Assembly: GCF_013283835.1 (NCBI RefSeq) | Contig: NZ_CP054052.1 | Location: forward strand, 992,001-1,056,000 | Direction of reading: 5' to 3' | Length of the DNA: 64,000 bases | DNA from: Poseidonibacter lekithochrous | Lineage (GTDB): Bacteria > Campylobacterota > Campylobacteria > Campylobacterales > Arcobacteraceae | In this document: in pieces, positions 3,799 to 30,775 of the stretch | Layout of the letters: each line of letters begins with the position of its first letter | How positions within the stretch are numbered: the stretch's first letter is position 1 | Program-made: the position numbers and the translations under genes | Notes under the pieces: model-generated | What the model saw: only the letters and a program-made list of their open reading frames with translations | Told to the model about the DNA's origin: nothing | Databases searched by the model: none

Positions 3799-3806
3799 GG
3801 TAAAAG

Positions 3807-4841: not shown

Positions 4842-6091
4842 TGAATAATAAAATTTGTGTAATAGGTCTTGGATACGTAGGTCTACCATTATCAGCAGCT
4901 TTTTCTTCAAAATATGATGTAGTTGGATTAGATATTTATAAAGAAAGAATTGATGAATTATCTCGTGCATATGATAGAACTTTAGAGTTAAATGAATCAC
5001 AACTTCAAGAAGCAATAGATAATAATATTAAATTTACTTGTAATATTGATGATATTAAAGATTGTAATATTTATATTGTAACTGTTCCAACTCCTATTGA
5101 TAAAAATAAAAGACCAGATTTAACTCCTTTAATAAAAGCTAGTGAAACTGTAGGAAAAGTACTCAAAAAAGATGATATTGTAATTTATGAATCAACTGTT
5201 TACCCAGGTGCAACAGAAGAAGAATGTGTACCAGTACTTGAAAAATTCTCTTCTTTAAAATTTAATACTAATTTCTTCTGCGGATATTCTCCTGAGAGAA
5301 TTAATCCAGGTGATAAAGAACATACAGTTACAAAGATTTTAAAAGTAACTGCAGGTTCAACTCCAGAGATTGGTAAAAAAGTAGATGAATTATATGCATC
5401 TATTATCACAGCAGGTACTCACTTAGCACCTACTATTAAAGTGGCAGAAGCTGCAAAAGTAATTGAAAATAGCCAGCGAGATATTAATATTGCATTTGTA
5501 AATGAATTGTCAATTATCTTTAATAAACTTGGTATTAATACAAATGATGTTCTTGAAGCAGCTGGAACAAAATGGAACTTCTTAAAGTTTAAGCCAGGAT
5601 TAGTTGGTGGACATTGTATTGGTGTTGATCCATACTACTTAACACATAAAGCACAACAAGTAGGATATAACCCAGAGATTATCTTAGCAGGTAGAAGACT
5701 AAATGATAATATGGGAATATATGTAGCTAATCAAGTAATAAAACTTATGATTAAAAAAGGTCATAAAATAGAAGGATCTAATGTATTAATGTTAGGTATT
5801 ACTTTTAAAGAGAATTGTCCAGATATTAGAAACTCAAGAGTCATAGATGTAGTAGAAGAATTACAAGAATTTGGATGTAATATAGATGTATATGACCCAT
5901 GGGCAGATAAAGAAGAAGTTTGTCGAGAATACAGTTTAAATTTAGTAGATAATATTGACATAACAAAGTATGATGGGATTGTGGTGGCTGTTGCTCATGA
6001 TGAGTTTAAATCTTTAGATTTATCAAATATAAATGATACAGTTGTATTTGATATTAAATCAGTAGTAGATTATCAAGATGGGAGTTTATAA
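4841..6091 (+). CDS. wbpO: UDP-GlcNAc/GalNAc 6-dehydrogenase (TviB/WbpO type)
   Basis: This is a UDP-sugar dehydrogenase of the UDP-Glc/Man family with 416 residues. It has the Rossmann motif [13 protein letters not shown], the conserved [22 protein letters not shown], the catalytic-cysteine loop [18 protein letters not shown] and [17 protein letters not shown]. These signatures match the Vi-antigen TviB and Pseudomonas WbpO branch rather than WecC. It overlaps the wbpP-like epimerase stop by one base, and its own stop shares one base with neuB. The inferred product is UDP-GlcNAcA or UDP-GalNAcA; which one is made first cannot be told from sequence alone. Confidence 0.88.
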
Positions 6092-7122
6092 TGCAGATAG
6101 AAAATAGGAAAATAGGATTAACTCATTCTCCTTTAGTTATTGTAGAAATTGGGATAAATCATGAAGGCTCATTAGAAGTTGCATTCGATATGGTAGATGC
6201 AGCTTGGAAGTCTGGTGCAGAAGTTATTAAACACCAAACACATGTAGTTGAAGATGAAATGAGTAAGGAAGCTAAAAATGTTATTCCTGGTAATGCAACT
6301 GAGTCTATATATTCAATTATGGAAAGATGTTCTTTAAGTGAATCCGATGAAATTAAATTAAAAAAATATGTTGAGTCTAAAGGGATGATTTTTATTAGTA
6401 CACCTTTTTCAAGAGCTGCAGCAAATAGACTTGAAAGAATGAATGTAAGTTCTTATAAGATTGGTTCAGGAGAATGTAATAATTACCCTCTTATTGAACA
6501 TGTAGCTTCTTTTGGTAAGCCCATGATTGTCAGTACAGGTATGAATGATATTGAATCTATTAGGAAAACTGTTAATATTTTAGAAGAATATAATATCAGT
6601 TATGCTTTGCTTCACACAACTAATCTTTATCCTACACCTATAAATTTAGTTAGATTAGGTGCAATGGTTGAACTTCAAAAAGAATTTCCTAATGCTATTA
6701 TTGGATTATCTGATCATACAACATCAAACAGAGCTTGCTTTGCTGCAACAGCATTAGGAGCAAATATTTTAGAAAGACATTTTACAGATAAAATGGAAAG
6801 AACAGGTCCTGATATAATTAACTCAATGGATCCTATAGCTTTGAAAGAACTTATAGTTGGAAGTGATGAAATATCACGAATGAGGGGTGGAAAAAAAGAA
6901 GCTGCGAAAGAAGAACAAATTACGATAGATTTTGCTTTTGCTACTGTTGTTACCATAGCTAAAATTAAAAAAGGGGAAGTTCTTACTTCTGAAAACCTTT
7001 GGGTAAAAAGACCTGGGACAGGTGAAATATTAGCTGAAAATTATAAAACTTTACTTGGTAAGAAAGTTAATAAAGATATTGAAGCTGATACTCATTTATT
7101 TTGGAATGATATTAATGACTAA
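6091..7122 (+). CDS. neuB: N-acetylneuraminate/legionaminate synthase, first copy
   Basis: NeuB-family synthases condense phosphoenolpyruvate with a ManNAc-type sugar to form a nine-carbon nonulosonic acid. The 343-residue protein has the TIM-barrel start [49 protein letters not shown] and LERHFTDK. The C-terminal antifreeze-like SAF domain spans about residues 285-340 ([19 protein letters not shown]). The exact substrate, ManNAc or the 2,4-diacetamido sugar of the legionaminate route, cannot be read from sequence. It heads nonulosonate set 1 and overlaps neuC by eight bases. Confidence 0.88.
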
Positions 7123-8260
7123 AAGAAAAATTGTTTTCTTAACAGGTACAAGAGCTGATTTTGGAAAACTAAAATCATTAATTAAAATTACGCAAAATGA
7201 TGCAAAATTAGATGTCCACATTTTTGCTACAGGAATGCATCTAAATTCTAAATATGGAAAAACTGTAGATGAAATTTATAAATCTGGATTTAAAAATATT
7301 TATCAATATATAAATCATGATACAGTTGAGCATATGGATAGAACATTAGCTAAAACTGTAGATGGATTTTCGCATTATATAGCAGAATTGAAACCTGACT
7401 TAATAATTGTTCATGGGGATAGAGTTGAAGCTTTAGCTGGTGCAATTGTTGGTAGTATGAATAATATATTAGTTGCTCATATTGAGGGTGGTGAAATATC
7501 TGGTACAATCGATGAACTAATTAGGCATTCTGTAAGTAAATTATCTCATATTCATTTAGTATCAAATGAAGAAGCAAAAAAAAGGCTAATTCAATTAGGT
7601 GAATTTGGAAATTCCATTTTTGTTTTGGGTTCGCCAGATCTTGATCTAATGGATTCTAGAAGTTTACCATCATTAACTGAAGTAAAAGAATATTATAATA
7701 TTAAATTTGATAAATTTTCGATTGCAATGTTTCATCCTGTTACTACAGAATATGATAAAATTCAAGAATATACATACAATTTTACTAAAGCATTAATTGC
7801 AAGTGGGCTAAATTATATAGTAATATATCCAAATAATGATTTAGGTAGTATTGAAATATTGAATGAATATAAAATATTTAATAACAATAAAAAAATAAAA
7901 TTATACCCATCTTTAAGATTTGAGTATTTTTTAACGCTTTTAAAAAATTCTGAGTTTATGATAGGTAATTCAAGTGCTGGTGTACGAGAAGCGCCTTATT
8001 ATAACGTATCTACAATTGATGTAGGTACAAGGCAAAATAATAGAGTTAAATTATCTTCTGTATTCAATTGTAATTATAGTTTCAATTCTATAATAAATTC
8101 GATTAATACAGTAAAAAATATAAAACATAAATTCTTAGAAGATAAAGATTATTTTGGAAAAGGAAAAAGTGATAAATTATTGCTGGAGTTAATTAATTCT
8201 AATAAAATATGGAAAATTAATCACCAAAAACAATTTCAGGAGATAAATATTAATGAATAA
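7115..8260 (+). CDS. neuC: UDP-GlcNAc 2-epimerase, hydrolysing (NeuC/LegG family), first copy
   Basis: NeuC releases ManNAc, or LegG the diacetamido analogue, from the UDP-sugar as acceptor for NeuB. The protein starts [18 protein letters not shown], then carries [37 protein letters not shown] and GTRQNNRV, all typical of the family. An open frame extends upstream to 7055 inside neuB, but I place the start at the ATG at 7115 (381 residues) because the Rossmann strand begins immediately and GGAA lies nine bases before it. A second, divergent neuC lies at 15429. Confidence 0.87.
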
Positions 8261-9011
8261 AATAAGAGTTATTTCACGAATTGATGTAAAAAATGAATTT
8301 GTTATTAAAGGAATACATCTTGAGGGTTTACGTAAAGTAGGTGATCCAAATATACTTGCTAAAAAATATTATGATGAGGGTATAGATGAAATAGTTTTTA
8401 TGGATGCTGTTGCTGCTTACTATGATAGAAATAGTTTAAGCCATATAATTGAAAAAGCTTGTAAAGATGTATTTGTTCCAATTACAGTTGGGGGAGGTAT
8501 TAGAACAATTAATGATATATCAAATGCATTGAAGGTTGGTGCAGATAAAATTGCAATTAATACAAAGGCTGTGCAAGATCCTGAGTTTATAAAAAAAGCT
8601 TCTGAAATATTTGGTAGTCAATGTATTGTATCTTCAATAGTATCAAAAAAAATCGATTCTAATAAATGGGAAGTTTATATTGATAACGGTCGGGAACCAA
8701 CTGGCATTGACGTATTAGAATGGGCAAAAAAAGTTGAAGAGTTAGGTTCAGGTGAAATAATGTTAACTTCAATAGACAAAGAGGGAACAAAAAGAGGTTT
8801 TGATATTGAATTAAATAAAGCTGTTTCTGAAATTGTATCTATTCCTGTTATTTCTAGTGGTGGAATGGGCAAATTAAATGATGCGGTTGATTTATTAAAG
8901 AAAACAAAAGTTGATGCAATTTCTATCGCTTCTGTTTTGCATTATAATATAGAATCTATTTCTGAAATTAAGAATAACTTAATAGATAATAACATAAAGG
9001 TTAGATTTTGA
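8253..9011 (+). CDS. hisF: HisF-like cyclase subunit for sugar amidination
   Basis: This 252-residue TIM barrel belongs to the HisF family: RVISRIDVKNEFVIKG at the start, PITVGGGIRTINDI, DKIAINTKAV and ISSGGMGKLND. In histidine synthesis HisF works with HisH. A HisF/HisH pair beside a PseA/WbpG amidotransferase, as here, is known from Pseudomonas O-antigen loci, where the pair supplies ammonia to turn an N-acetyl group into an acetamidino group. No other histidine genes are near, so I infer the glycan role. AGGAG lies about a dozen bases before the ATG, which overlaps neuC by eight bases. Confidence 0.85.
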   Translation: MNKIRVISRIDVKNEFVIKGIHLEGLRKVGDPNILAKKYYDEGIDEIVFMDAVAAYYDRNSLSHIIEKACKDVFVPITVGGGIRTINDISNALKVGADKIAINTKAVQDPEFIKKASEIFGSQCIVSSIVSKKIDSNKWEVYIDNGREPTGIDVLEWAKKVEELGSGEIMLTSIDKEGTKRGFDIELNKAVSEIVSIPVISSGGMGKLNDAVDLLKKTKVDAISIASVLHYNIESISEIKNNLIDNNIKVRF

Positions 9012-9655
9012 AAATAGTTGTTATAGATTATGATATAGGAAATGTAAAAAGTATAATTAATGCGTTGGAAAATATCGGTATTACTCCACAATTAACAAAT
9101 GAGAGAAATGAAATATTAAAAGCTGATGCAGTGATTTTGCCAGGTGTTGGGGCTTTTAAACATGGAATGGAAAATCTTAAGAAATACGAGCTTATTGAAA
9201 GTTTACTAGACTTTATTAAGTTAGATAAGCCTTTTCTTGGCATTTGTCTTGGAATGCAAATGCTACTTGAAGAAAGTGAAGAATTCGGAATAACAAAAGG
9301 ATTATCTGTAATAGAAGGTAAAATAAAAAAACTACCAGTTAAAAATTTGAATTTTGAAAAACTACCGCATGTTAGTTGGAATGAAATAAGAAATAAAAAT
9401 AATAATTGGAAAAATACAATTTTAAATGATATCGGTGAATATAGTGACATGTATTTTGTTCATAGTTTTGTAGCTATGCCAAAAAATGAAAATGATATAT
9501 TATCAACAACTCTATATTCTGATTATGAATTTGTATCATCATTAAAAAAAGGAAATGTTTACGGTTGTCAATTTCATCCTGAAAAAAGTGGTGAAATTGG
9601 TTTGAAAATATTAAAAAATTTTGTAAATATATGTAAAGGAAAATATAATGGCTGA
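9008..9655 (+). CDS. hisH: HisH-like glutamine amidotransferase subunit
   Basis: This class I glutaminase has 215 residues. It has VVIDYDIGNVKSI at the start, VILPGVGAFKHGMENL, the nucleophile loop FLGICLGMQMLL (the cysteine of GICLGMQ), and the C-terminal triad region GCQFHPEKSGEIG with His and Glu. It hydrolyses glutamine and should pass ammonia to HisF. The start is TTG at 9008, overlapping the hisF stop in the pattern TTGA. The position between hisF and pseA supports a dedicated amidination complex rather than histidine synthesis. Confidence 0.87.
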   Translation: MKIVVIDYDIGNVKSIINALENIGITPQLTNERNEILKADAVILPGVGAFKHGMENLKKYELIESLLDFIKLDKPFLGICLGMQMLLEESEEFGITKGLSVIEGKIKKLPVKNLNFEKLPHVSWNEIRNKNNNWKNTILNDIGEYSDMYFVHSFVAMPKNENDILSTTLYSDYEFVSSLKKGNVYGCQFHPEKSGEIGLKILKNFVNICKGKYNG

Positions 9656-10883
9656 GAAACTAGAAGCTTACTACGGCTTACCAAATGAGGTGAAATTTTG
9701 TAAGAAATGTGTAATTTCAAACCAAAGACCAAGCTCAACTGTTGAGTTTAAAAATGAAAAAGGTGAAAAGAAAAAAGTAATAAACTTTAATGACGAAGGT
9801 GTTTGTTCTGCTTGTGTATACCATGAAGAGAAAGAAGAAGGTATTAATTGGAATGAAAGGGAAGATAAATTAGAAGAACTACTATCTAAATTTAGAAGTA
9901 CAGATGGGTCATATGATGTAATTGTTCCTGGTAGTGGAGGTAAGGATAGTGCTTATACTGCACATGTTCTAAAATATAAATATGGAATGAACCCTTTGAC
10001 AGTTACTTGGGCACCACATCTATATACAGATATTGGTTGGAAAAATATGCAAGAATGGATGCACACAGGAGGGTTAGATAATATTTTATATACTCCTAAT
10101 GGAAAACTACATAAAGAAATGACAAGGAATGCTTTTCATAATTTATTACATCCTTTTCAGCCTTTTATTGTTGGTCAAAGAATTATTGGTCCTGCTATGG
10201 CTAAAAAATTTGGTGTTCAACTTGTAATGTATGGTGAAAATCAAGCTGAATATGGTAATGCTATTGAAGAAAATACTAATCCTATTATGAATATGGACTT
10301 TTTCTCTTCTGAAGATGCCTTGGAAATGAAGTTTGGGGGTATCTCTATGCAAGAATATATAGATACAGGTAGATATTCAAAAGATGATTTTGCACCTTAT
10401 ATTGCTCCAGATAAAAAAGATTTAGTTGAATCTGGCGTTGAAGTACATTATTTAGGTTATTATCTTAAATGGGATCCTCAAGAATGTTACTATTATGCGG
10501 TAGATAATACAGGTTTCCAAGCAAATCCTGTTAGAACAGAAGGAAGTTACTCAAAGTATAGTAGTATTGATGATAAAATTGATCCCTTTCATTATCTTAC
10601 AACTTTGATTAAGTTTGGAATTGGAAGATGTACATATGATGCTGCTCAAGAAGTTAGAAATGGTAAAATAACTAGAGAAGAAGCTGCATATTTAGTTAAA
10701 AAATATGATACAGAATTTCCTGATAAATATTTTGAGGAATTTTTGGAATATATTGATTCTACTGAGGAAGAATTTTGGGAGACAATGAATAGTCATAGAT
10801 CTCCTCATATTTGGAAAAAAGTAGGTGAAGATTGGAAATTAAGACATACAGTTAATAATGATGGTATAGATGACAAAAAGTAG
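9648..10883 (+). CDS. pseA: N-acetyl sugar amidotransferase (PseA/WbpG family)
   Basis: The protein has 411 residues. An N-terminal zinc-type pair, FCKKCVIS and GVCSACVYH, precedes a PP-loop ATP pyrophosphatase motif VPGSGGKDSAYTAHVL near residue 90. Later segments MYGENQAEYG and GYYLKWDPQECYYYA are typical of the family. PseA and WbpG convert N-acetyl to N-acetimidoyl groups on sugars, using ammonia from HisH/HisF. Its place between neuC and neuA suggests the target is the set 1 nonulosonic acid, although the ManNAcA-type sugars made upstream cannot be excluded. It overlaps hisH by eight bases. Confidence 0.85.
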   Translation: MAEKLEAYYGLPNEVKFCKKCVISNQRPSSTVEFKNEKGEKKKVINFNDEGVCSACVYHEEKEEGINWNEREDKLEELLSKFRSTDGSYDVIVPGSGGKDSAYTAHVLKYKYGMNPLTVTWAPHLYTDIGWKNMQEWMHTGGLDNILYTPNGKLHKEMTRNAFHNLLHPFQPFIVGQRIIGPAMAKKFGVQLVMYGENQAEYGNAIEENTNPIMNMDFFSSEDALEMKFGGISMQEYIDTGRYSKDDFAPYIAPDKKDLVESGVEVHYLGYYLKWDPQECYYYAVDNTGFQANPVRTEGSYSKYSSIDDKIDPFHYLTTLIKFGIGRCTYDAAQEVRNGKITREEAAYLVKKYDTEFPDKYFEEFLEYIDSTEEEFWETMNSHRSPHIWKKVGEDWKLRHTVNNDGIDDKK

Positions 10884-11553
10884 AATTTTAGCTGTGATTC
10901 CAGCCCGAGGCGGTTCTAAGGGATTGCCTGGTAAAAATATTATTGATTTTGCTGGTAAGCCTTTAATCACTTGGACTATTGAATCTAGTATTAATTCTAA
11001 ATATATATCTAAAACTATAGTTAGTAGTGATGATTATGAAATTCTAACTGTATCAAGGGAAAATAATGCTAACACACTTAAGAGACCTGATTATTTGGCC
11101 CTTGATACAACGGCAACAGAACCAGTAGTTTTGCATGTGCTTGATTCATTGAAAATTAGCAATGAAATCTTTGATTATATTATTCTTCTTCAACCTACTT
11201 CTCCCTTGCGAAGTAGTAAAAATATAGATGAGGCTTTTGATTTATTACTTAATAGTGATGCTACCTCTCTTATTAGTGTTTGTGAAATAGATAATAAAAT
11301 ATTAAAAGCTTTCAAAAAGAATGATAAAGGATTTATAGAAGGTATATCTAATAATAAATACCCTTTTATGAGAAGGCAAGATTTACCAAATACTTATATG
11401 AGTAATGGTGCAATATATATAATTAAAACTAGTGAATTTCTTAAAAATAATAGTTTTCTTACAACAAAAACAGTATCTTATTTAATGAATAGCCGTGATA
11501 GTATTGATATCGATAATGAAACTGATTTAGTAAAAGCAAGAGCATATATATAA
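10870..11553 (+). CDS. neuA: CMP-nonulosonate cytidylyltransferase (NeuA family), first copy
   Basis: NeuA activates nonulosonic acids with CTP to CMP-sugars used by glycosyltransferases. This 227-residue protein starts RILAVIPARGGSKGLPGKNI, the CTP-binding signature, and has ISKTIVSSDDYEI, LLQPTSPLRSS and a C-terminal DSIDIDNETDLVKA, which contributes metal-binding aspartates. The start at 10870 lies inside the last codons of pseA, giving a 14-base overlap. It completes nonulosonate set 1. The second NeuA at 16588 is clearly different in sequence, so the two probably act on different sugars. Confidence 0.88.
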   Translation: MTKSRILAVIPARGGSKGLPGKNIIDFAGKPLITWTIESSINSKYISKTIVSSDDYEILTVSRENNANTLKRPDYLALDTTATEPVVLHVLDSLKISNEIFDYIILLQPTSPLRSSKNIDEAFDLLLNSDATSLISVCEIDNKILKAFKKNDKGFIEGISNNKYPFMRRQDLPNTYMSNGAIYIIKTSEFLKNNSFLTTKTVSYLMNSRDSIDIDNETDLVKARAYI

Positions 11554-14409: not shown

Positions 14410-15429
14410 TTGAATAATATTGAGAAAAAAACGTACATAATAGCAGAAATAGGTAATACTCATGAAGGTAGTTTAGGCCTTGCTAAACAGTTTATTAAGT
14501 CTGCATCTGCTTGTGGAGTAGATGCTGTTAAAATGCAAACACATATATTTGAAGCTGAAAGTTTACTATCTGCACCAAATCCTCCTTATTTTAAAGACGA
14601 AACACGAAAAGAATATTTTGAGAGGACTTCTTTTTCTGTTGATCAGTGGAAAGAACTTAAAAGATATAGCGAAGAAGATTTAAAAATTGATTTTTTTAGT
14701 TCACCCTTTTCTCTTGAAGCAGTAGATTTATTAGAAGAAGTAGGAATGGATACTTATAAAATTGCTTCAGGTGAAGTAAATAATATTCCACTCCTTGAAA
14801 AAGTTGCAAAAACTGAAAAAAAAGTACTACTTTCAAGTGGTATGAGTAGCTGGAATGAAATAGATGAAGCAGTTGAAACACTTCAGACAAATGGATGTAA
14901 AAATTTAGTTGTTCTTCAATGTACATCTGAGTACCCATGTCCTCCAGAGCAAAGTGGTTTAAATGTGTTAGATGAAATGAAAAATAGATATGAAAATGTA
15001 GAGATAGGATATAGCGACCATACAATGGGTGTTGCTGTGCCAATTGCTGCTGTAATCAAAGGTGCAACAGTAATTGAAAAGCATTTTACACTTTCTCAAA
15101 AAATGTATGGTAGTGATGCTATGAATTCTACAGAACCAGATGAATTTAAACGACTTGTAGATGAGATAAGACAAATTGAAACATCTTTGACTAATAATAT
15201 AGATAAAGATGAAAAAGTTAAAAACTTAACTAACATGAAAATAACTTTTGAAAAATCAATTGTATCAGCAGATTCAATAAATGAATTGGATAAAATAGAA
15301 TTTAAACATTTAGCTTTTAAAAAACCTGGGGATGGAATTCCTGCAAAAGAGTATAAAAAACTTTTAGGTAAGAGAATAAATAAAAAAGTTAATAAAGATT
15401 ATAAATTTAAATGGGAAGATTTTAAGTAA
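14410..15429 (+). CDS. neuB: Nonulosonic acid synthase, second copy (NeuB family)
   Basis: A second NeuB-family synthase of 339 residues, with IIAEIGNTHEGSLGLAKQF, VKMQTHIFEAE, FSSPFSLEAVDLLE, KIASGEVNN, IGYSDHTMGV and IEKHFTLS. The SAF domain near residues 275-335 carries KPGDGIPAKEYKKLLGK. The start is TTG at 14410, with AAAGG eight bases upstream, three bases after the flippase stop. It differs strongly from the copy at 6091, so this is not a recent duplication. It heads nonulosonate set 2. Confidence 0.88.
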   Translation: MNNIEKKTYIIAEIGNTHEGSLGLAKQFIKSASACGVDAVKMQTHIFEAESLLSAPNPPYFKDETRKEYFERTSFSVDQWKELKRYSEEDLKIDFFSSPFSLEAVDLLEEVGMDTYKIASGEVNNIPLLEKVAKTEKKVLLSSGMSSWNEIDEAVETLQTNGCKNLVVLQCTSEYPCPPEQSGLNVLDEMKNRYENVEIGYSDHTMGVAVPIAAVIKGATVIEKHFTLSQKMYGSDAMNSTEPDEFKRLVDEIRQIETSLTNNIDKDEKVKNLTNMKITFEKSIVSADSINELDKIEFKHLAFKKPGDGIPAKEYKKLLGKRINKKVNKDYKFKWEDFK

Positions 15430-16586
15430 TGAAAAAAATATGTGTTTTTGTTGGAAGTAGAGCAAATTATAGTAGTATCAAATCAGTTATGAGAGCAGTA
15501 AAAGCTCATCCTAAGTTAGAACTTCAAGTAGTTCTAGGTGCGTCTGCAATTTTAGATAGATTTGGGAAAGTTGAAGATTTAATTAGAAAAGATGGATTTG
15601 AACCAAACTTTACTTTTCATAACTTAGTAGAAGGCGAAAATCCTGCTACTATGGCAAAATCAACAGGTTTAGGATTAATGGATGCTTCTATGATTTTTAA
15701 TAACTTAAAGCCTGATTTTTTAGTAGTTGTTGGTGATAGATTTGAAATGATGTCAGTTACTTTAGCTGCTGCATATATGAACATAAGAATTGTACATACT
15801 ATGGGTGGAGAAGTAACAGGAACAATTGATGAGAGTATTAGACATGCAATTACAAAATTCGCACATGTCCATTTCCCAGCAAATGAAGATTCTAGTAAAA
15901 GAATCATAAAAATGGGTGAAGATGAAGAATTTGTTTTTAATGTTGGGTGCCCTCGAACAGACTTAGTTGCAGAAGAACTTAAAAATGATAGTTATGATAT
16001 TTTAAAAGATTTATTTAAAATATATGGTGGAGTTGGTAAAGAATTTGATCTAACTAAACCTTATTTATTAGTTTCTCAACATTCAGTAACTACTGAATTT
16101 GGAAATAACAGAAAACAAATAGAAGAAACTTTAAAAGCTCTTGAAGAATTAGAAATGCCAACTATTATGTTATGGCCTAATGCTGATGCAGGTGGAGATG
16201 ATATATCTAAAGGTATAAGAACATATAGAGAAAAACATAATCCTCAATGGTTGCATCTTTTTAAAAACTTACCTACTCATATATATATACATCTTATGAA
16301 TACAACATCTTGTTTAGTAGGAAATAGTAGTTCTGGCGTAAGAGAAGGGGCTTTTATTGGAACACCTGTAATTAATATAGGAACGAGACAAAATAAAAGA
16401 CTTAGAACAAACAATGTAATCCAAGTAGATTATAATGCTAAAGAAATAATAGAAGGTATTAAACAACAATTAACTAATGGAAAATATGAAAGTAGTGATA
16501 TGTATGGTGATGGTACTGCAGGAGATAAAATAGCAGAAATACTTACTTATGTAGAACCTTCAATTCAGAAGACTATTACTTATTAA
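15429..16586 (+). CDS. neuC: UDP-GlcNAc 2-epimerase, hydrolysing, second copy (NeuC/LegG family)
   Basis: This 385-residue protein has KKICVFVGSRANYSSIKSVM, VVGDRFEMMSVTLAAAYM, HTMGGEVTGTIDESIRHA, VGNSSSGVREGAFIGTP and GTRQNKRLRTNNV. These match the hydrolysing epimerase family. The opening VGSRANYSS differs from the TGTRADFGK of the first copy. It follows neuB by a one-base overlap and precedes neuA by one base, giving the compact order neuB-neuC-neuA. The genes legB, legC and legH needed for legionaminate are not in this window, so Neu5Ac-type synthesis or supply from elsewhere is possible. Confidence 0.87.
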   Translation: MKKICVFVGSRANYSSIKSVMRAVKAHPKLELQVVLGASAILDRFGKVEDLIRKDGFEPNFTFHNLVEGENPATMAKSTGLGLMDASMIFNNLKPDFLVVVGDRFEMMSVTLAAAYMNIRIVHTMGGEVTGTIDESIRHAITKFAHVHFPANEDSSKRIIKMGEDEEFVFNVGCPRTDLVAEELKNDSYDILKDLFKIYGGVGKEFDLTKPYLLVSQHSVTTEFGNNRKQIEETLKALEELEMPTIMLWPNADAGGDDISKGIRTYREKHNPQWLHLFKNLPTHIYIHLMNTTSCLVGNSSSGVREGAFIGTPVINIGTRQNKRLRTNNVIQVDYNAKEIIEGIKQQLTNGKYESSDMYGDGTAGDKIAEILTYVEPSIQKTITY

Positions 16587-16587
16587 T

Positions 16588-17244
16588 ATGAAATTTCTTG
16601 GGATAATACCTGCAAGAGGTGGAAGTAAGGGAATACCTAAAAAAAATATAAAACTTTTAAAAGGTAAACCCCTTATTGCTTATACTATAGAAACTGCACT
16701 TAATTCTAAACTTGATAAAGTGATAGTTTCTACTGATTGTGAAGAGATAGCAGAAGTATCTAAAAATTATGGTGTGGAAGTGATGATGAGGACTGATATA
16801 TTGGCTCAAGATAAAACTCCTACACTGCCAGTTTTACAAGATGTTGTAAGTAAACTTGATGAAGAATATGATGCTATTATGACTCTACAACCTACTTCTC
16901 CCTTAAGAACAGAAAATCACATAAATGAGTCAATAAAACTTTTTGAAATTAATACTAGTGCAGATAGTTTAGTAAGTGTTGTTGAAATGCCACACAATTT
17001 TAGTTCTGAAAAATTAATGAAACTTGAGGGAATGTATTTAACTGGTAATAGTAATGTAAAAAGAAGGCAAGAAGTAGAAATTATGTATGCAAGAAATGGT
17101 GCAGCTATTTATATAACAAAATGTGAAAAACTTAATGAATATATATTTGGTGGTAAGATTTTACCATACTTTATGAGTAAAATAAATAGTTTTGATATTG
17201 ATGATATGGAAGATTGGGAAATAGTGGAGAAATTAATTGGATAA
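16588..17244 (+). CDS. neuA: CMP-nonulosonate cytidylyltransferase, second copy (NeuA family)
   Basis: A 218-residue cytidylyltransferase beginning KFLGIIPARGGSKGIPKKNI. It has KVIVSTDCEEIAEV, MTLQPTSPLRTENHI and a final SFDIDDMEDWEIVEKL with the metal-binding aspartates. It activates the product of the second NeuB as a CMP-sugar. The stop overlaps the start of the next gene by eight bases. With the copy at 10870, the locus encodes two separate CMP-activated nonulosonates. Confidence 0.88.
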   Translation: MKFLGIIPARGGSKGIPKKNIKLLKGKPLIAYTIETALNSKLDKVIVSTDCEEIAEVSKNYGVEVMMRTDILAQDKTPTLPVLQDVVSKLDEEYDAIMTLQPTSPLRTENHINESIKLFEINTSADSLVSVVEMPHNFSSEKLMKLEGMYLTGNSNVKRRQEVEIMYARNGAAIYITKCEKLNEYIFGGKILPYFMSKINSFDIDDMEDWEIVEKLIG

Positions 17245-18514
17245 AAGTGGTATAAGCATAATAGCAGAAAATGGTATCGCAATCTACACTGTAAAACCTA
17301 TAATAAAAGAACTTGTTAATAAGGATATTTCTATATATATTTATACTACAGTGAACAAAGATATTGTATCTAAAGAACTTAATATAAAAAAAGAAAAAAT
17401 TATAAATATTAATACCTTAACTAATAGATACAAATCTGTATTTGATTTTTTATTAAAACAACTTCTTGTAAATAGTAAATTTTCAACTCAATATTCTAGG
17501 ATTAATAAAACAAATTCTAAAGTACTTAATGTTTTAGGAAACTTTTTTTTAAAATTACCTAAGCCAAATAGTAAAAAAGTTAATAATATATATTCGTTTA
17601 TATGGAAAAATATAAACAGAAAACCATCTTTTAAAACAAAAAAATTATTTGTTATTACTAGAACAGGCAATAGTTATTTAATAAATAATAAACACCATAC
17701 AGCTTTTACATTAGTAGAAAGTTGGGATCATCCTGTAAAGTCGCCATTTTTTTTTAATAGTAAACTTACTTTTGTTTGGAACAATAGTTTAAAACAGGAT
17801 GTTGTAAAATTTCAGAATTATGATTCAAATCTAATCGAAACAATTTATCCAATGAAGTTTAGATATATTGAAGAGTTAAAAGATAAAAATATAAATATCG
17901 CTAATGTATTTATAAAAAAAGAATTAGATTTTATTGAAAGTAACAAATATGTTTTATATATTTGTACTTATTCTAATTTCTCAGGAAATAATCTCTTTGA
18001 AGGTGAAAAGTTATTGATAAAAGAAATACTATCTATTTGTAAAAAAAACAATAAAATTCTTTACATAAAACCGCATCCTCATTCTAATGGAAAAGAATTT
18101 GAATTTCTAGATAAAAGTGAAGATTTTAGAATAGGAATATCAGCAACAAATAATGGATATAACTATATTTTCACTGATGAAGATCAATATTATAAAATTC
18201 AACTTTTAAAAAAAGCAAATACAATTATTAATGTAGGAACAACGTTAGTTCTTGAATCAAGTTTATTAAATACAAATATAGTACAGATAAAACTTAATAA
18301 TAATTATAAAAACTTTAAAGTAGTAAGTGAAAATTATCATAATAAAAAGTATTTAAATAGCGGTAATTTTATATTAGATTTAAACACTGAACCATTGTAT
18401 AAATTGGAAAAATATATAGAAAAAGAAAATAAATTTGCTCACGAATTAAAATACTGGGTTACAGATAAAACTTATAAACAAAGTATAGAGGAAATAGTTG
18501 ATGAAATTTCTTAA
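17237..18514 (+). CDS. Unknown protein following neuA, possible sialyltransferase-like enzyme
   Basis: I do not recognise the family of this 425-residue protein. It starts at TTG 17237, eight bases inside neuA, and has no other plausible start. No signal peptide or membrane segment is visible. Around residues 270-280 it has ILYIKPHPHSNGKEFEF, a lysine-proline-histidine motif like that in capsule-type and CMP-sugar transferases with a GT-B fold. A later NTIINVGTTLVLESSLLNT could line the nucleotide site. The position directly behind neuA makes a CMP-nonulosonate transferase a fair guess. The gene contains T8 and T9 runs (about 17543 and 17747) that could slip. Confidence 0.45.
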   Translation: MDKSGISIIAENGIAIYTVKPIIKELVNKDISIYIYTTVNKDIVSKELNIKKEKIININTLTNRYKSVFDFLLKQLLVNSKFSTQYSRINKTNSKVLNVLGNFFLKLPKPNSKKVNNIYSFIWKNINRKPSFKTKKLFVITRTGNSYLINNKHHTAFTLVESWDHPVKSPFFFNSKLTFVWNNSLKQDVVKFQNYDSNLIETIYPMKFRYIEELKDKNINIANVFIKKELDFIESNKYVLYICTYSNFSGNNLFEGEKLLIKEILSICKKNNKILYIKPHPHSNGKEFEFLDKSEDFRIGISATNNGYNYIFTDEDQYYKIQLLKKANTIINVGTTLVLESSLLNTNIVQIKLNNNYKNFKVVSENYHNKKYLNSGNFILDLNTEPLYKLEKYIEKENKFAHELKYWVTDKTYKQSIEEIVDEIS

Positions 18515-19073
18515 AAAATTAATAAAACCTGTTTATATTGAATTGAATTCTTTTTTTAATGGCTTTATAATTTATTGTTTTAATTTAATAGTAAATAAAA
18601 TACCTTTTCATTTGGTTAGACTATTTTTGTATAGATTTTTAATCACTATAGGAAGTAAAAGTTCAATATTAATGAATGTAACAATAAGAGGTAAAAATAT
18701 AAAAATTGGTACAAATTGTGTTATTAACAGTGGTTGTTTATTAGATGGACGAGGGAGTAGTAAGATTATTATTGGAAACAATGTTGATATTGCACCTTTT
18801 GTTAAAATATGGTCAGTTGATCATAACCCAAATTCTTCTATACATGAAGCAAGATCAAAAGATGTTATTATTGAAGATAATTGTTGGGTGGCAAGCTCCG
18901 TTATAATACTACCTGGAATTACTCTTGCTGAAGGTACTGTTGTAGCTGCTGGTTCGGTTGTAGTTAAAAGTACCGAACCTTATTCAATTGTAGGTGGCAT
19001 CCCTGCAAAATTTATTTCAAATAGAAATAGGGATATTGAGTATAAACATTTTTGGAGACCTTGGTTTGAATAA
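18501..19073 (+). CDS. Hexapeptide-repeat acyltransferase
   Basis: This 190-residue protein has a left-handed beta-helix C-terminus: repeats around KIGTNCVINSGCLLDG, KIIIGNNVDIAPFVKI and VIIEDNCWVASSVIILPGI, ending VVAAGSVVVKS and SIVGGIPAKFI. That is the O-acetyltransferase pattern (WbbJ/LacA type). The N-terminal 35 residues are hydrophobic and basic, perhaps a membrane contact. I place the start at ATG 18501, eight bases after AGAGGA, rather than at the TTG just before it. It probably acetylates a sugar of the repeat unit; the substrate is not known. Confidence 0.78.
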   Translation: MKFLKKLIKPVYIELNSFFNGFIIYCFNLIVNKIPFHLVRLFLYRFLITIGSKSSILMNVTIRGKNIKIGTNCVINSGCLLDGRGSSKIIIGNNVDIAPFVKIWSVDHNPNSSIHEARSKDVIIEDNCWVASSVIILPGITLAEGTVVAAGSVVVKSTEPYSIVGGIPAKFISNRNRDIEYKHFWRPWFE

Positions 19074-20130
19074 TAATGATTTAATTTTTAAAGATTTAAT
19101 TTACAGAGTTTTTTATGAACCATATTATTTAAAAGAAATATTAAGTTTTAATAAATATGGTAAAATTATAGAAAAAGAATTTGAAAATCTTCTAAATAAA
19201 ACTATTTCTTCAAATGAACAATTATCAGAATACATTATCAATTATTATTTTCAAGATAAGAAGAAAATAGATAAGAATTTAAAAAAGACTTCACTTAATC
19301 TGAAAACTAGTATAACTAAATCAATATATTCAAGTTATATTAATGATATTAATAAATTTATTATAGGTAATAACTTGGAACAATTTGCTGATTTTATATT
19401 ATTTGGAAGTCTTGCTACTGACGATTTTGTAAAAGAATTTAGTGATATTGACATGGTTTGTTTTATAAAAGACAGTGTTTTTGAATCGCCTTATTCATTT
19501 AATTTTTTTCAAGAAAAAATGTATCAGTTAAATGGACTTCTTTTACGTATAGATCCATTACAAAACCATGGAGTATTTATTGTTTTGCCATATGAAAAAT
19601 TAAATTATAAAGAGTCTTTGAATATTCCATTAGAAGTGTTGACAAAAGGGATTTTATTAGGTAGTAAGAAAAAAACAATAGAGTTATTAGTAAATAATGA
19701 TTCTTCTTTTCAAGATTCAAAAAAATATTTATCTGATTATATTAAATTGGTTCAAAAAGAAATGTTAAATGCTAACAATAGTTACAGGTTTTATAGAGAT
19801 TTTTTGCATAGAGTGTATCTTTTACCGGCATTATATCTACAGGATAAAGGAAGATATTGTTATAAAAAAGATTCATTTTCTTTAATTAATAATTATAACG
19901 GTTTTGATGTCATCTCTAAACTCTGTAATTTTTATGATGATAAATTTTATAAAAGTAGAATATATCGAAAGATAATTCCAAGTTTTTTATTTAAAAGGTA
20001 TCCTATTGTAATGAGATATCTTTTAAGTAAAATTTACGGAAGTAAAGAACAAAAAATTCTTTCAAATAGCGAACTAAAGAGCTATTTTGAAAAATTGAAT
20101 AAATTAATTAAAAAGATTGAAAATGAATGA
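19066..20130 (+). CDS. Pol-beta-superfamily nucleotidyltransferase, first of pair
   Basis: This 354-residue protein has a nucleotidyltransferase signature at residues 110-135: FILFGSLATDDFVKEF followed by SDIDMVCF, giving the GS loop and the two metal aspartates. A possible third acidic residue is in LLRIDPLQNHG near residue 160. The rest is helical with no recognised domain. The frame is open upstream to 18994, but TTG at 19066 has GGAG eight bases upstream and overlaps the acyltransferase stop by eight bases, so I use it. The substrate is unknown. It lies next to a second such enzyme and a PfkB kinase. Confidence 0.65.
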   Translation: MNNNDLIFKDLIYRVFYEPYYLKEILSFNKYGKIIEKEFENLLNKTISSNEQLSEYIINYYFQDKKKIDKNLKKTSLNLKTSITKSIYSSYINDINKFIIGNNLEQFADFILFGSLATDDFVKEFSDIDMVCFIKDSVFESPYSFNFFQEKMYQLNGLLLRIDPLQNHGVFIVLPYEKLNYKESLNIPLEVLTKGILLGSKKKTIELLVNNDSSFQDSKKYLSDYIKLVQKEMLNANNSYRFYRDFLHRVYLLPALYLQDKGRYCYKKDSFSLINNYNGFDVISKLCNFYDDKFYKSRIYRKIIPSFLFKRYPIVMRYLLSKIYGSKEQKILSNSELKSYFEKLNKLIKKIENE

Positions 20131-21241
20131 ACTAAAGACAAATATAGAAAAATATTTTACTAATGATCTTAGTACTTATGCTTTTTCTAACTATCCTAGA
20201 GATATTAAAAAAGATTATTATTTTGAATTGAGAGATAAAATATCACGAGACTTAATTCATATAGATGGTATTTTATCAGTATACTCAATGGGTAATGTAG
20301 GTGCTCCTGGAATTTCTGATTTAGATTTCTTGATTGTAGTGGAAAATGATTTTTCTAATAAAAAATTATTAGAAGATTATTTTAGTAATTTGACTGATTT
20401 AGACAAATATATTGCCTTTGTTCATTATCCTTTTATTGCGTTTGAAGATAATATTAACAATGTTTTAAAAATACTGCCTTTAAGTAATTTAAATTATGAA
20501 CAAGGTAAAAAATATGATTTTAGTTCAGAAATATCAGAGAATGAAAATATAACTATATTATCAGAATTAAGTTTTCTTTTTTATCCCAATTTATTTATCA
20601 ATATTTTGCTTATGAAAAATATTGATTTTCGACAATCTATACAATTATTAAACGCATTTAGATTTCCACTAGAATTTATTTTAAAATATAATGAAATAAA
20701 ATGCTTTAAACAATATATTGAAAAATTGGACAAAATAAAGGCTAGTTGGAAAACTTTAGATAAAGAAGAACTCAAGAAAGAAATAATTATTCTTTTAAAA
20801 GAAGCTTTATTTGTATGCTACATATTAATTGATGAGATTAATAAAAAGATTGAATGTATTGAATCTAAAAATATTGATTTACCATCATTTAATGTTATTA
20901 TATTAAATAATTATAATCATATTAAATCATTAACTTATACTGTTAACATATATTATAAATATAATCGACTTGTTAAATTTTTACCTTTAAACTTTATAAA
21001 ACCATATACTATGTTAAGCGAAAATAATAGTAATATTATATTTGAATATAATACTATAAATATGAAAATTAATAGAAATAGTGAATTTATGAATAGAAAT
21101 AAGTTGTATTCTGATTATTCAAATAATTTAACAAAAAATAACTTAGAAGATTTTGTACCATACCCATTTTTTTTCAAAAATAAAAAAACATCAATCTTAA
21201 AAAAAGTATTCTATAAAATAATTAAAAGGCTGTATAAATGA
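20123..21241 (+). CDS. Pol-beta-superfamily nucleotidyltransferase-like protein, second of pair
   Basis: A 372-residue protein with VYSMGNVGAPGISDLDFLIVV at residues about 53-73. The SDLD aspartates of the nucleotidyltransferase site are clear, but the usual GS is GN, which is unusual and may change activity. The remainder is helical and unrecognised. I prefer the ATG at 20123 to the TTG at 20117; it overlaps the first nucleotidyltransferase by eight bases. The end overlaps the PfkB kinase by four bases. The tight coupling suggests that the three proteins work on one molecule, possibly a nucleotide-activated decoration for the glycan. That is inference. Confidence 0.55.
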   Translation: MNELKTNIEKYFTNDLSTYAFSNYPRDIKKDYYFELRDKISRDLIHIDGILSVYSMGNVGAPGISDLDFLIVVENDFSNKKLLEDYFSNLTDLDKYIAFVHYPFIAFEDNINNVLKILPLSNLNYEQGKKYDFSSEISENENITILSELSFLFYPNLFINILLMKNIDFRQSIQLLNAFRFPLEFILKYNEIKCFKQYIEKLDKIKASWKTLDKEELKKEIIILLKEALFVCYILIDEINKKIECIESKNIDLPSFNVIILNNYNHIKSLTYTVNIYYKYNRLVKFLPLNFIKPYTMLSENNSNIIFEYNTINMKINRNSEFMNRNKLYSDYSNNLTKNNLEDFVPYPFFFKNKKTSILKKVFYKIIKRLYK

Positions 21242-22116
21242 AAAAAATAATACTTTGTGGATCTTTAGCATATGATAATATTATAGTATCAAATGATACG
21301 TTTATTGAACAATATGAAAAATACAATAGTTTAAATATGTCTTTATCTACGGGATCCGTACGAGTTGAATATGGAGGTTGTGCTGGTAATATAGCATATG
21401 GTTTAAATCAATTAGGAATAAAATCAAAAATCATTTCATCTTTAGGAAAAAAAGATAGCAAAAATTACTTGAAACATCTTAAATCAAATAATATTAAGAC
21501 AAATGATATCCGTATTTTCAAAGGTTTTTCTGCGCAGGCACATATCTTAAATGATAAAGAGAACAATCAGATAACATCATTTTATTTAGGCTCTTTATCA
21601 AATAGGCTAAATGATGTAACTTTTAGTAAAAATAATATTGTAATGATTTCTCCCGATAATATTGAAAATATGAAGTTCTATGCAAATTATTGTATCAAAA
21701 ATAATATAGAATTTATTTTTGATCCAGGTCAAGTTATATCAATGTTTAATAAAAAAGATTTGAAATTGTTTATATCTAAATCTAAGATATTGATTATCAA
21801 TCAACATGAATTTAATTTTTTAGCTAGTAAATTTAATGAAAAAAAACTATTTAATTTAACTAAAAAAATTATAATTACAAAAGATTCCTCTGGTTCAGAA
21901 CTTTATATTAATGGGGAGATGAAGCATTATGAAAAAGCAAACACAGTTATTAAAAAAGAGATAATTGATCCTACGGGCTGTGGAGATGCTTATAGAGCTG
22001 GGGTTTTGTATTCATTGATCATTGATGATATAAAAAAAGGTATGAAAATAGGTTCTAATTTAGCCTCTGAGAATATTAAATCTCATGGTACACAAAATTA
22101 TAAAATTAAGGGATAA
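21238..22116 (+). CDS. PfkB-family carbohydrate kinase
   Basis: This 292-residue kinase has the N-terminal ILCGSLAYDNIIV, an early glycine-rich YGGCAGNIAYGLNQLG and the C-terminal PfkB signature IIDPTGCGDAYRAGVLYS, where the aspartate of GCGD is the catalytic base. The family phosphorylates ribose, adenosine, fructose, heptose or related molecules; the GGxxGN and DPTGCGDA form is nearest to the ribokinase/adenosine-kinase branch. The substrate is not known. It overlaps the second nucleotidyltransferase by four bases. A kinase that makes a sugar phosphate and two nucleotidyltransferases could form an activation cassette. Confidence 0.75.
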   Translation: MKKIILCGSLAYDNIIVSNDTFIEQYEKYNSLNMSLSTGSVRVEYGGCAGNIAYGLNQLGIKSKIISSLGKKDSKNYLKHLKSNNIKTNDIRIFKGFSAQAHILNDKENNQITSFYLGSLSNRLNDVTFSKNNIVMISPDNIENMKFYANYCIKNNIEFIFDPGQVISMFNKKDLKLFISKSKILIINQHEFNFLASKFNEKKLFNLTKKIIITKDSSGSELYINGEMKHYEKANTVIKKEIIDPTGCGDAYRAGVLYSLIIDDIKKGMKIGSNLASENIKSHGTQNYKIKG

Positions 22117-22119
22117 AGT

Positions 22120-23556
22120 ATTCTTACTATTAATCGAAATTTATATATAAATTACCTATTAACTTTATTATGTTCTTTCCCAATTTTACTAATATTTTAC
22201 AAATTTGGAGGAGCTAGTTTTTTAATTAAAAACCTAATGATATCTTTATGTTTTGTATTTTTTATTCTTTTGTCAATAAATAAAATTAAAGTATTAATTC
22301 ATTCCTTACCATTATTTGTCTTTGTGTCAATATATCTTCCCGGTAGTATAAGAACTGATTATTTAATAATTATTGGTTTATTTCTTTCCCTATTGATATA
22401 TAAAATATATAATAATCAACCGTTTAAGTTAAATAATCTCCTTGTATATTTACTAATATTTACAATTTATCCTATTTTTAGTACTTTTGTATATTCATAC
22501 TTAAATAATAGTTTTGAAACATTAACTTTTGCAAGTATTACAATGAATCAATTTTGGATAAGGATATGTATAATTTCATTTATAGCTTACAATATTATAT
22601 ATAGTGAAGAGTTATTTATTAAATTCTTTAAAATATTGTACTTTACAAGTATTATTATATTACTTCATGGATTAGGTGAAACACTGGGTATTGTTCCTTC
22701 TTTTTTTGATAAAATAACTTATCTCTTCATTAAGCCGTCAAATTATTTTATGTATGAACAGTTAGTAAATTTGCCTATTCATAGAGCAACTAGTATTTTA
22801 TCACATCCAACTACTTTTGCTTATTTTGCTTTTTTTATTTTTATTATTACTTTTATGTATAAGAAAAATATAATTAAATATATCAGCAGAAAGGTTGTTT
22901 TGAGTATTGCAATAATTGCAGGTATTGCATCTATATCTAAGGTTTTTTTTGCAGGGATGTTATTTTTTATATTGTATGAAGTTGTTTATAAACAAAAAAG
23001 ATACAAATTATTTTTAGCTTTTATCTTTTCAGTTAGCTTTTTTATTCTATACGTATATTTTTTTGGAGCAGGTCATAAAATAACTCTTTTTAATACTTTA
23101 TACTATAATGTCAATTTACTTTATGAGTCTGGGATATTTGAATATGCTTTTAGAACAAGATATGATAGTGATACTGGCTTATTAGTATCAACTATACCTT
23201 ATATAGTAAATAACTTTTTATTTGGTATTGGTGCAAATATATTGCCTAACATTTTTTATGGTGATTCATTTTATTTTTCGTCAATGTTAAAATATGGAAT
23301 AATAGGAACTTCATTTTTTATATTTATAATATTTAGAATTAGAAAAGAGTTAAAACAAATTATTTGTTTGGTGGATGATCCGTTGATAATAGCAATTATT
23401 CAAACAGTTATTTTCTTATTATTATTTAACTTTATAATTGCAGTAGGCTCGGAACCTTTTACTTTATCTAGAATAACTGAAATTGTTTATTTTATAATAT
23501 TTTTATTTTTAGGGGGATATAAAATGAAAAGGAAATGTTGTGATAATAAGATCTAA
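22120..23556 (+). CDS. wzy: O-antigen polymerase/ligase-like membrane protein (Wzy-like), probable ATT start
   Basis: This protein is hydrophobic along its length with about eleven to twelve membrane segments. A central loop contains INRATS-like [19 protein letters not shown], and a late loop is [19 protein letters not shown], as in Wzy/O-antigen ligase proteins. The first ATG is at 22237 but has no ribosome site and would cut the first membrane helix. The frame is open back to 22117, and ATT at 22120 has AAGGG seven bases upstream, right after the kinase stop; this gives 478 residues with a normal family N-terminus ([20 protein letters not shown]). I infer ATT initiation. It overlaps hddA by 17 bases. 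Confidence 0.72.
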
Positions 23557-28569: not shown

Positions 28570-29462
28570 ATGTAAAAAAAATAGTTATATTTGGTAAATT
28601 ACCACCACCTATTGGAGGAGTAACAAGAAGCATTGAAAATTTATTTAGATCTTTGGAATTAAAAAAAATATTTGTTGAAATTATCTCTAAAAAAAATTTT
28701 TTTAAAAGATTTGATGTTGCACATGTACACTATTCAAAAAGTTGGAAAAGATTAATTGGTTTAATTCTAGGAAAAATTATTGCTAAAAAAGTAATATTTA
28801 CATTACATGGAAATAAATATAATAATGATATTTATAATAAAATAAATTCAAAAATTGCTGATGGTGTGATATTTTTAAATAAGAATACTTATAATAAAAA
28901 TCATCAGAAATTTACTAATTCAGTAATATTAACTTCATTATTTAAAGAAGGTTTATTTATCCATAAAGAGGGTAAAAAACTTTTAATAAAAGACTCTTCA
29001 AAAGTCTACGTGTTAGTATATGCATATACTAAAGTGATTCAGGATAATAAAGATATTTATGGTATGGATTTTATTTTAAATAATGTTGATAAATTTGATG
29101 ATAATTACGTTATTGTTTTTATTGATCCAAACTCTGGATATAAAAATGATATTCCATCTAATTTAAATGGTAAATTGATTTATTTAAACTATGAAGTAAA
29201 TTTTTTATCATTATTACAAGAAGTAGATATGTATATAAGACCTACAAGTACAGATGGTAATTCAGTAGCTGTGCAAGAAGCTCTTATGTTAGGTAAAAAA
29301 GTGCTTGCAAGTGATGTAGTAGATAGAGGTGATAGTGTTATAACATATAAATATAATAATTCTGAAGATTTTTTTAATAAACTAAAAAAGAATTGTGATA
29401 GTAAGATTGATTATAATCCTAATAGCATTGATAAATATTTAGAATTTTTAGGAAAATTATAA
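28566..29462 (+). CDS. Glycosyltransferase-like protein, short GT-B
   Basis: A 298-residue protein that resembles GT4 enzymes but is shorter than usual. It starts KIVIFGKLPPPIGGVTRSIENL, the acceptor-domain glycine loop, has FTLHGNKYN, and ends with a donor-domain segment DMYIRPTSTDGNSVAVQEALML in place of the usual E-G-x-P-x-x-x-x-E motif. About 60-80 residues of a normal GT-B protein are missing, mainly in the middle. I infer that it is a transferase of the repeat unit. The substrate is unknown. Confidence 0.7.
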   Translation: MNVKKIVIFGKLPPPIGGVTRSIENLFRSLELKKIFVEIISKKNFFKRFDVAHVHYSKSWKRLIGLILGKIIAKKVIFTLHGNKYNNDIYNKINSKIADGVIFLNKNTYNKNHQKFTNSVILTSLFKEGLFIHKEGKKLLIKDSSKVYVLVYAYTKVIQDNKDIYGMDFILNNVDKFDDNYVIVFIDPNSGYKNDIPSNLNGKLIYLNYEVNFLSLLQEVDMYIRPTSTDGNSVAVQEALMLGKKVLASDVVDRGDSVITYKYNNSEDFFNKLKKNCDSKIDYNPNSIDKYLEFLGKL

Positions 29463-30775
29463 TGTTGTCTACATTAAAAAAAGTTTATGATAACTTACCA
29501 AAAAAATATATTAAATTTTTAAAATATATACCAGACACAGTTTTATTTGGTAGATCTTATTTGTCATGGAAAGAAAAAGTCTATTTTGATAAAAGCAATA
29601 TAGATAAAAATCTATTAGAAATATTAGTATATACTAGAGAAAATACACAATTTGGAAAAGATAATATACAAAAAGATATAAATATATCAAATGTAAAAAA
29701 AGTATTAGAAACATTACCTTTAATATCATCTAATGATTTATCTACAAATTTGGATTATTATGTATCAAAAGAATTCAAAGATAAAAAATCTTATCTCACG
29801 ACTACAGGTGGTACAGGTAGGAACCCTACTTCAATTTTACTTTCAAATGAATCTTATGGTATTGAGTGGGCTCATATGCATCATATTTGGTCTTTGTTAG
29901 GATATAAAAAATCTAGAGATTTGAAATTAACACTTAGAGGAAAAAGTTTAAAAGATAACAATTTAGTAGAATATAATCCTATTTATAATGAGCTAGTGGT
30001 GGATACATTTAAAGTAAAAGATACTAACTTTAAAGATTTTTTAAAAGTTATAAATAAGTATGATATTAAATATATACATGGTTATCCTTCCTTAGTCAAA
30101 GAATTTATAGTTTATTTTGATAAATATAATTATAAACTTTCTTTAAATGGCATATTTTTGGCTAGTGAAGGGGCAACGGTAGAAGATAAAAAAAAGATTT
30201 CAGATTTTTTTAAATGCAAAGTTATTCATTGGTATGGTCAAAGTGAAAAAGTTACATTAGCTGTTGATACCAAATCAAATGATATGTTTAAGGTTTATAC
30301 ATCTTATGGTTATCCACGAATTGTTAATGGTGAACTTATTGCTACTTCATTTGTGAACAAGGCTTTACCCTTAATAAATTACAGAATGGGAGATGGCGCA
30401 GATATAGTTGAATCTGATAATCATATTTATATTAAAAATCTGAAAGGTAGATGGGGGAAAGATTTTATTTATCTTGATAAAAATAAAAAAATACCAACAT
30501 CATCAATTAATTTACATTCTTCAATACAAGATCAAATATTATTTTATCAAATATATCAAAAAGAATATAAGTCCATTGAAATAAGAGTAGTGCCTAAAAC
30601 GGATAGTACCTTAAATACAAAAAAATTAATTGAAACTTTTGGACTAGAAATGAGAAGTAATTTAAAAGATTTTAGTATAAATGTGAAAATTGTAAATGAA
30701 AATGAAATAATAAAAAGTCATAGAGGAAAAATGATCCTTTTAGTGCAAGAATTAAAAAACAAAATGGAGAACTAA
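29462..30775 (+). CDS. Adenylate-forming enzyme of the PaaK/CapK family
   Basis: This 437-residue protein has the AMP-binding loop YLTTTGGTGR at residues 111-120, the adenine-site segment VIHWYGQSEKVTLAV near 258-270 and NYRMGDGAD. These match the phenylacetate-CoA ligase branch, including CapK proteins found in capsule loci. In such loci the role is unproven; activation of an organic acid for attachment to a sugar is one idea. It is coupled to the transferase before it by a one-base overlap and lies four bases ahead of the two-domain oxidoreductase. Confidence 0.75.
   Translation: MLSTLKKVYDNLPKKYIKFLKYIPDTVLFGRSYLSWKEKVYFDKSNIDKNLLEILVYTRENTQFGKDNIQKDINISNVKKVLETLPLISSNDLSTNLDYYVSKEFKDKKSYLTTTGGTGRNPTSILLSNESYGIEWAHMHHIWSLLGYKKSRDLKLTLRGKSLKDNNLVEYNPIYNELVVDTFKVKDTNFKDFLKVINKYDIKYIHGYPSLVKEFIVYFDKYNYKLSLNGIFLASEGATVEDKKKISDFFKCKVIHWYGQSEKVTLAVDTKSNDMFKVYTSYGYPRIVNGELIATSFVNKALPLINYRMGDGADIVESDNHIYIKNLKGRWGKDFIYLDKNKKIPTSSINLHSSIQDQILFYQIYQKEYKSIEIRVVPKTDSTLNTKKLIETFGLEMRSNLKDFSINVKIVNENEIIKSHRGKMILLVQELKNKMEN

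Follow-up and report, generated by a model that had tools for sequence, protein, structure and literature searches.

A conserved pair of nucleotidyltransferase-like genes in bacterial and archaeal glycan loci is a candidate two-component enzyme of glycan assembly

Within a 64,000-nucleotide stretch of the Poseidonibacter lekithochrous genome (assembly GCF_013283835.1, contig NZ_CP054052.1, positions 992,001 to 1,056,000; hereafter the window), a long glycan operon carries two overlapping genes for nucleotidyltransferase (NTase)-like proteins, which we refer to as NT1 and NT2. The pairing of these two genes is well supported, as each of the NT1 relatives that we found is accompanied by an NT2 relative, either directly or with one gene in between. 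We propose that NT1 and NT2 form a two-component NTase-fold enzyme of glycan assembly, in which NT1 is the catalytic and NT2 a degenerate partner, a reading that we judge to be evenly poised between right and wrong. The association of both proteins into a heteromer, their division of labour and the donor, acceptor and product that they would use are inferred by analogy.

All coordinates refer to the window. NT1 (19066..20130, + strand; 354 aa) starts with a TTG at 19066, with the sequence GGAG ahead of it at 19054-19057, and its stop is at 20130. NT2 (20123..21241, +; 372 aa) starts with an ATG at 20123, an alternative TTG at 20117 being possible, and its stop is at 21241. Behind it lies a gene encoding a PfkB-fold kinase (21238..22116, +), which starts with an ATG at 21238. 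The original prediction had described these three genes as a coupled set within a glycan locus, and this layout was borne out: NT1 and NT2 overlap by 8 bases and NT2 and the kinase gene by 4 bases, with a hexapeptide acyltransferase gene (18498-19073; PF00132) on the 5' side and a gene for a Wzy-like membrane protein on the 3' side.

Single-sequence searches with NT1 and NT2 in genomes, viral contigs, plasmids and phages yielded no relatives. A species-wide scan of 84,980 species was steered by two NT1 motifs, K[EK][FY]SDIDM and DPLQHHG[VF]. The latter pattern was suggested by the sequence of NT1 itself; X-filled alignment rows and an N167H change were used to steer the search only, and the relatives were rechecked afterwards with unmodified sequences. 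The scan revealed nine NT1 relatives in records from Elusimicrobia, Oceanospirillaceae, a gammaproteobacterium, Planctomycetota, Kiritimatiellae, Methanomassiliicoccales (an archaeon), Flavobacteriaceae, Nitrospirales and Splendidivirga. An NT2 relative adjoined NT1 in all nine loci, in the order NT1-NT2 in six, as NT2-NT1 in loci L019 and L021 and convergently in L024. When ten loci were searched with profiles built without the tested locus, each contained exactly one NT1 (E-value (E) ≤5.5e-39) and one NT2 (E ≤1.4e-13), and the ten genomes held one NT2 copy each. The window proteins themselves were found by such profiles with E 2.9e-40 (NT1) and E 1.5e-24 (NT2), and both are thus far above chance. 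As a less biased sample, 138 other Bacteroidia were searched with the NT1 profile, which gave six full-length relatives, again with NT2 beside NT1 in 6/6; in L079, one sulfotransferase-like gene lies between them. Together, the pairing holds for 15/15 NT1 relatives from at least seven phyla including the one archaeon, counted from the NT1 side, as every search started from NT1. Most of the relatives come from metagenome-assembled genomes, so that individual taxonomic labels may be wrong. In L078 (10571-11395) and L079 (442-1197), sulfotransferase-domain genes adjoin the pair or lie inside it.

The NT1 profile gave no match in 93 other Gammaproteobacteria and none in 55 other Nitrospirota genomes. 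Among 396 other Campylobacterota there was no full-length match either, and weak matches (E 3e-8 to 1e-4) that covered the NTase core only were rejected. No relative of NT1, of NT2 or of this type of PfkB kinase was obtained among the other Campylobacterota sampled; borderline matches to NT1 or NT2 were short and were discarded, the best one (L002) lying inside a groEL gene. The proteins of the relatives, used as queries against plasmids and phages, had no match.

Both proteins had been predicted to be NTases with metal-binding aspartates, the second with GN in place of the GS loop, and our analysis agrees on all three points. NT1 matches the Pfam family NTP_transf_2 (PF01909) above the cut-off (E 2e-5). 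Across 16 members, i.e. the window and its 15 relatives, ten positions of NT1 are without exception: G114, S115, D127, D129, D163, Q166, H168, G169, P188 and K267. The first four form the GS-x11-DxD motif (19405..19452, +). D163, which would be the catalytic third acid, opens the signature D163-P-L-Q-N-H-G (19552..19572, +), which reads DPLQHHG in most relatives. The C-terminal half contributes a K267-x-x-S-F motif (19864..19878, +), in which F271 is kept in 15/16 members. With GS loop, DxD and putative third acid, NT1 has the features of the Pol-beta-type NTase superfamily, and by these invariant positions, the Pfam match and the family profile it appears to be catalytically intact. Among proteins of solved structure, the NT1 profile gave its best matches to ANT(4')/kanamycin nucleotidyltransferase (E 2e-5) and to the AMPylase DrrA (E 1.7e-4).

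NT2 falls below the cut-off of NTP_transf_2 (E 0.33). Its motif G57-N58 ... P62-G-I-S-D66-L-D68 (20291..20326, +) retains G57, S65, D66 and D68 among the 16 members, with S65 and both aspartates in 16/16. Position 58, the serine of the GS loop, is Ser in 10/16; of the other six members, two have G and one each N, M, H and T. With N58, the window protein lacks a GS loop. A histidine (His101; 20423..20425, +) is found at or near the third-acid position, a column matched by profile-profile alignment, in 13/16 members. An AlphaFold2 model of NT2 from a 10-row alignment had an overall predicted local distance difference test (pLDDT) score of 64, with values mostly of 77-96 at residues 1-110 and of 60-91 up to residue 240; a single-sequence model (pLDDT 38) was discarded. 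In Foldseek comparisons to solved folds AAD(9) was the best match (E 2.6e-4), and residues 28-240 superimposed on AadA, AAD(9) and ANT-3,9 with Z-scores of 9.0-9.1 over 185-194 residues at a root-mean-square deviation of 3.5-3.7. The top Foldseek matches were all NTases and extended over both domains. The model places the predicted fold of NT2 closest to the ANT(9)/ANT(3'') adenylyltransferases, and fold matches and the invariant D66/D68 mark it as an NTase by fold and DxD motif. Based on model, fold matches and family profile, we regard NT2 as a degenerate, probably paralogous partner of NT1. Comparison of both profiles by hhalign gave E 4e-4 at a probability of 36 and aligned the HHG region of NT1 with the NT2 histidine. 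The distances within the two families correlate with each other (Mantel r 0.64, p 1e-4).

The genes surrounding the pair, glycosyltransferase genes among them, point to glycan assembly. Wzx/MurJ-like flippases or ABC exporters are present in or near most pairs (L019, L021, L023, L025, L026, L027 and L077-L081). Nonulosonic acid genes accompany the pair in five loci: the window, L020, L021, L025 and, as the probable fifth, L019, whose left end is similar to the C-terminal portion of the L020 NeuB fusion. In the window, neuB, neuC and neuA (14410..17244, +; TIGR03569, TIGR03568, TIGR03584) are followed by a gene for a 425-aa protein without Pfam match, a probable glycosyltransferase (17237..18514, +). 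This order, neuB-neuC-neuA-glycosyltransferase-NT1-NT2, is shared with L025, a Flavobacteriaceae contig, in which a relative of the 425-aa protein, with 28% identity to it across 423 columns (E 1e-36), is likewise encoded between neuA and NT1. The two loci differ in an extra gene in L025 between neuA and this relative and in the acyltransferase gene that separates the 425-aa protein from NT1 in the window. Downstream of the kinase gene is that of the Wzy-like protein, which has 439 aa and no Pfam match and is plausibly Wzy; heptose genes headed by hddA are also nearby.

The PfkB-fold protein is well matched by PF00294 (E 2.3e-28), and its closest solved relatives are the nucleoside kinases BthNK (3b1n; E 3e-41) and MjNK from M. 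jannaschii (2c49; E 1e-29). It shares 32% identity and the motifs GGCAGN and DPTGCGD with BthNK from B. thailandensis, the latter motif as D244-PTGCG-D250 (21967..21987, +). By its GG..GN and D-x-T-G-x-G-D motifs and its best matches it falls into the nucleoside-kinase branch, while in contrast to BthNK and MjNK it is encoded within a glycan operon. Matches on plasmids were set aside, as they were actinobacterial and belonged to the same broad kinase type, with one located in a methionine-cycle cassette. No PfkB match was present near NT1-NT2 in any of the 15 relatives, as judged for the six Bacteroidia loci by comparison with the window proteins. Of the predicted three-gene set, NT1 and NT2 therefore stay together across genomes, but the three-gene order does not, and a conserved unit of three was rejected. 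The kinase is thus better regarded as a separate neighbour, with no more than a possible link to the pair, unless the divergent pair of the window is a special case. The suggested likeness to phosphoramidate-type modification gained no support: the kinase resembles nucleoside kinases and not a gene of a known phosphoramidate pathway, and among the neighbours examined we recognised neither the glutamine kinase nor the cytidylyltransferase or partner genes that make methyl phosphoramidate (MeOPN). A phosphorus-containing decoration of the glycan remains a reasonable inference.

How might such a pair work? The ANT enzymes transfer AMP (adenosine monophosphate) to sugar hydroxyls. They would share the NTase core and helical bundle with the predicted fold of NT2 (residues 28-240), and they have the GS and DxD elements in common with NT1, but identity is only 8-14%, and NT1-NT2 differ as a gene pair of glycan loci with a DPLQHHG motif and one degenerate partner; this genomic context argues for a glycan rather than an aminoglycoside as substrate. 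ANT(4')/kanamycin nucleotidyltransferase and DrrA have the GS-DxD core in common with the NT1 profile, but just ~55-100 residues align, and context and partner are different. A likely functional analogy exists to the LicD/fukutin proteins (PF04991; phosphocholine or polyol-phosphate transferases), as LicD-type members of the NTase superfamily move phospho-groups from cytidine diphosphate (CDP) conjugates onto glycans (PMC11666461). Membership in that family was rejected, since 20 NT1 and NT2 family members gave no PF04991 match up to E 0.1. By analogy with ANT and LicD-type enzymes, NT1, with its full metal-binding and catalytic set, would perform the chemistry of a glycan-modifying transferase. 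NT2, a putative paralogue predicted to have an adenylyltransferase-like two-domain fold, shows an eroded GS loop and lacks a conserved third acid; its part may be structural or regulatory, or it may help to bind the substrate. The pair would most likely move a nucleotidyl group from a nucleoside triphosphate, or a phospho-substituent from a donor linked to CDP or another nucleoside diphosphate, to a sugar hydroxyl; the acceptor in several loci is perhaps a nonulosonic acid or its neighbour. Transfer would take place in the cytoplasm, ahead of flipping of the lipid-linked unit.

Several observations weigh against this proposal. The window NT1 sits on a long branch and departs from the family at 6/21 near-invariant positions, more than any other member, so that it may have become specialised or be subject to drift. 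For NT2, residues 242-372 gave no usable AlphaFold2 model, and unrelated models reach Z-scores of 7-8, close to the value of 9 for NT2; as helical bundles of unrelated proteins match similarly well, it is mainly the NTase core and the match across both domains that support the assignment. The hhalign probability for kinship of the two proteins is low, their co-variation may be due to shared descent alone, and none of the genes beside the pair was recognisable as one for a donor such as CDP-choline or a CDP-polyol.

Other roles of the pair have to be considered. NT1 and NT2 might produce an activated precursor by coupling a nucleotide to a sugar phosphate or small molecule (the product of PfkB being one possibility), and a further enzyme would transfer it to the glycan. 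NTase-fold enzymes can make nucleotide-linked precursors, the CDP-diacylglycerol synthase Tam41 is among the weak fold matches, and PfkB overlaps NT2 by the said 4 bases; but none of the relatives has the kinase beside the pair, the locus already holds dedicated cytidylyltransferases for nonulosonic acid activation, and the closest folds transfer onto sugar hydroxyls, which makes this role unlikely in our view. The same lack of PfkB beside the relatives speaks against a single pathway of a nucleoside or sugar kinase and two transferases leading to a nucleoside- or phospho-decorated glycan. The tight translational overlaps within the trio and the intact kinase motifs would fit such a pathway, and the private changes of the window NT1 could mark a new substrate, but gene overlap by itself is common in this operon, and we deem the pathway quite improbable.

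Slightly less credence still is given to a regulatory role, in which the pair controls glycan synthesis by adenylylating a protein in the manner of GlnE or DrrA and leaves the glycan itself unmodified. The match of the NT1 profile to DrrA and a possible function of NT2 as sensor or pseudoenzyme are in line with this, but the neighbouring enzymes differ greatly among loci, so that no common protein target is evident. Finally, weak matches to models of MntA and of cyclases of the cyclic-oligonucleotide-based antiphage signalling system (CBASS) raised the question of a defence or toxin-antitoxin module residing in glycan loci by chance. These matches are far under the cut-offs (NF041117, 14 bits versus a cut-off of 200; PADLOC cyclase, E 0.002) and cover the NTase core only. 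MNT-HEPN systems (HI0073/HI0074, MntA-HepT) are likewise two-gene arrangements including an NTase, but they combine an NTase of ~100 aa with a HEPN protein, whereas NT1 and NT2 are both NTase-like and have ~350 aa. As no effector or HEPN partner was recognised and glycan-assembly context is found in nearly all loci, the module was rejected as very improbable.

Neither Pfam nor NCBIfam has a family that names NT1 or NT2 beyond the generic NTase superfamily, and searches of the literature available to us returned no account of this gene pair or of glycans bearing nucleotidyl groups. We tentatively suggest, with less confidence than for the two-component enzyme as such, that NT1-NT2 represent an undescribed, widely scattered class of two-subunit glycan-modifying enzymes in bacteria and archaea, composed of an active and a degenerate ANT-like NTase, which place nucleotidyl groups or novel phosphodiesters on surface glycans. 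If true, the aminoglycoside-type adenylyltransferases would gain a glycan-modifying sister group, and the pair may bear on the origin of antibiotic-adenylylating enzymes. A conserved, unnamed NTase-like pair in glycan loci of distant phyla points to a step of glycan decoration or control that is missed by current annotation, and it offers two genes that can be tested in the search for surface glycans with phosphorus-containing groups.

Some further features were observed. In L020, NeuB is fused to a xylose-isomerase-like (AP_endonuc_2) domain (1851-4097), adjoining the NT pair and a gene for an MptE-like (Maf-type) protein, which suggests flagellin glycosylation. In the window, the frame of the Wzy-like gene is open upstream of the ATG at 22237 back to the PfkB stop (22117-22237) and encodes a hydrophobic segment without ATG, GTG or TTG; translation might begin at a non-standard ATT near 22120, which is preceded by AAGGGA. 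The window locus contains two nonulosonic acid gene sets (6091-11553 and 14410-17244), the first of which also carries HisF/HisH-like genes and a WbuX amidotransferase gene. A protein of the AMP-binding (PaaK-like) type, under the Pfam cut-off, is encoded at 29462-30775 within the glycan locus. The open reading frame 37011-37745 has almost the same sequence as the 3' portion of galE (42093-43109), a partial duplication that flanks ManC-like and phosphomannomutase-like genes. The ManC-like frame (38938-40005) is without the usual N-terminal nucleotide-binding start, and either the gene is truncated or its start lies further upstream.

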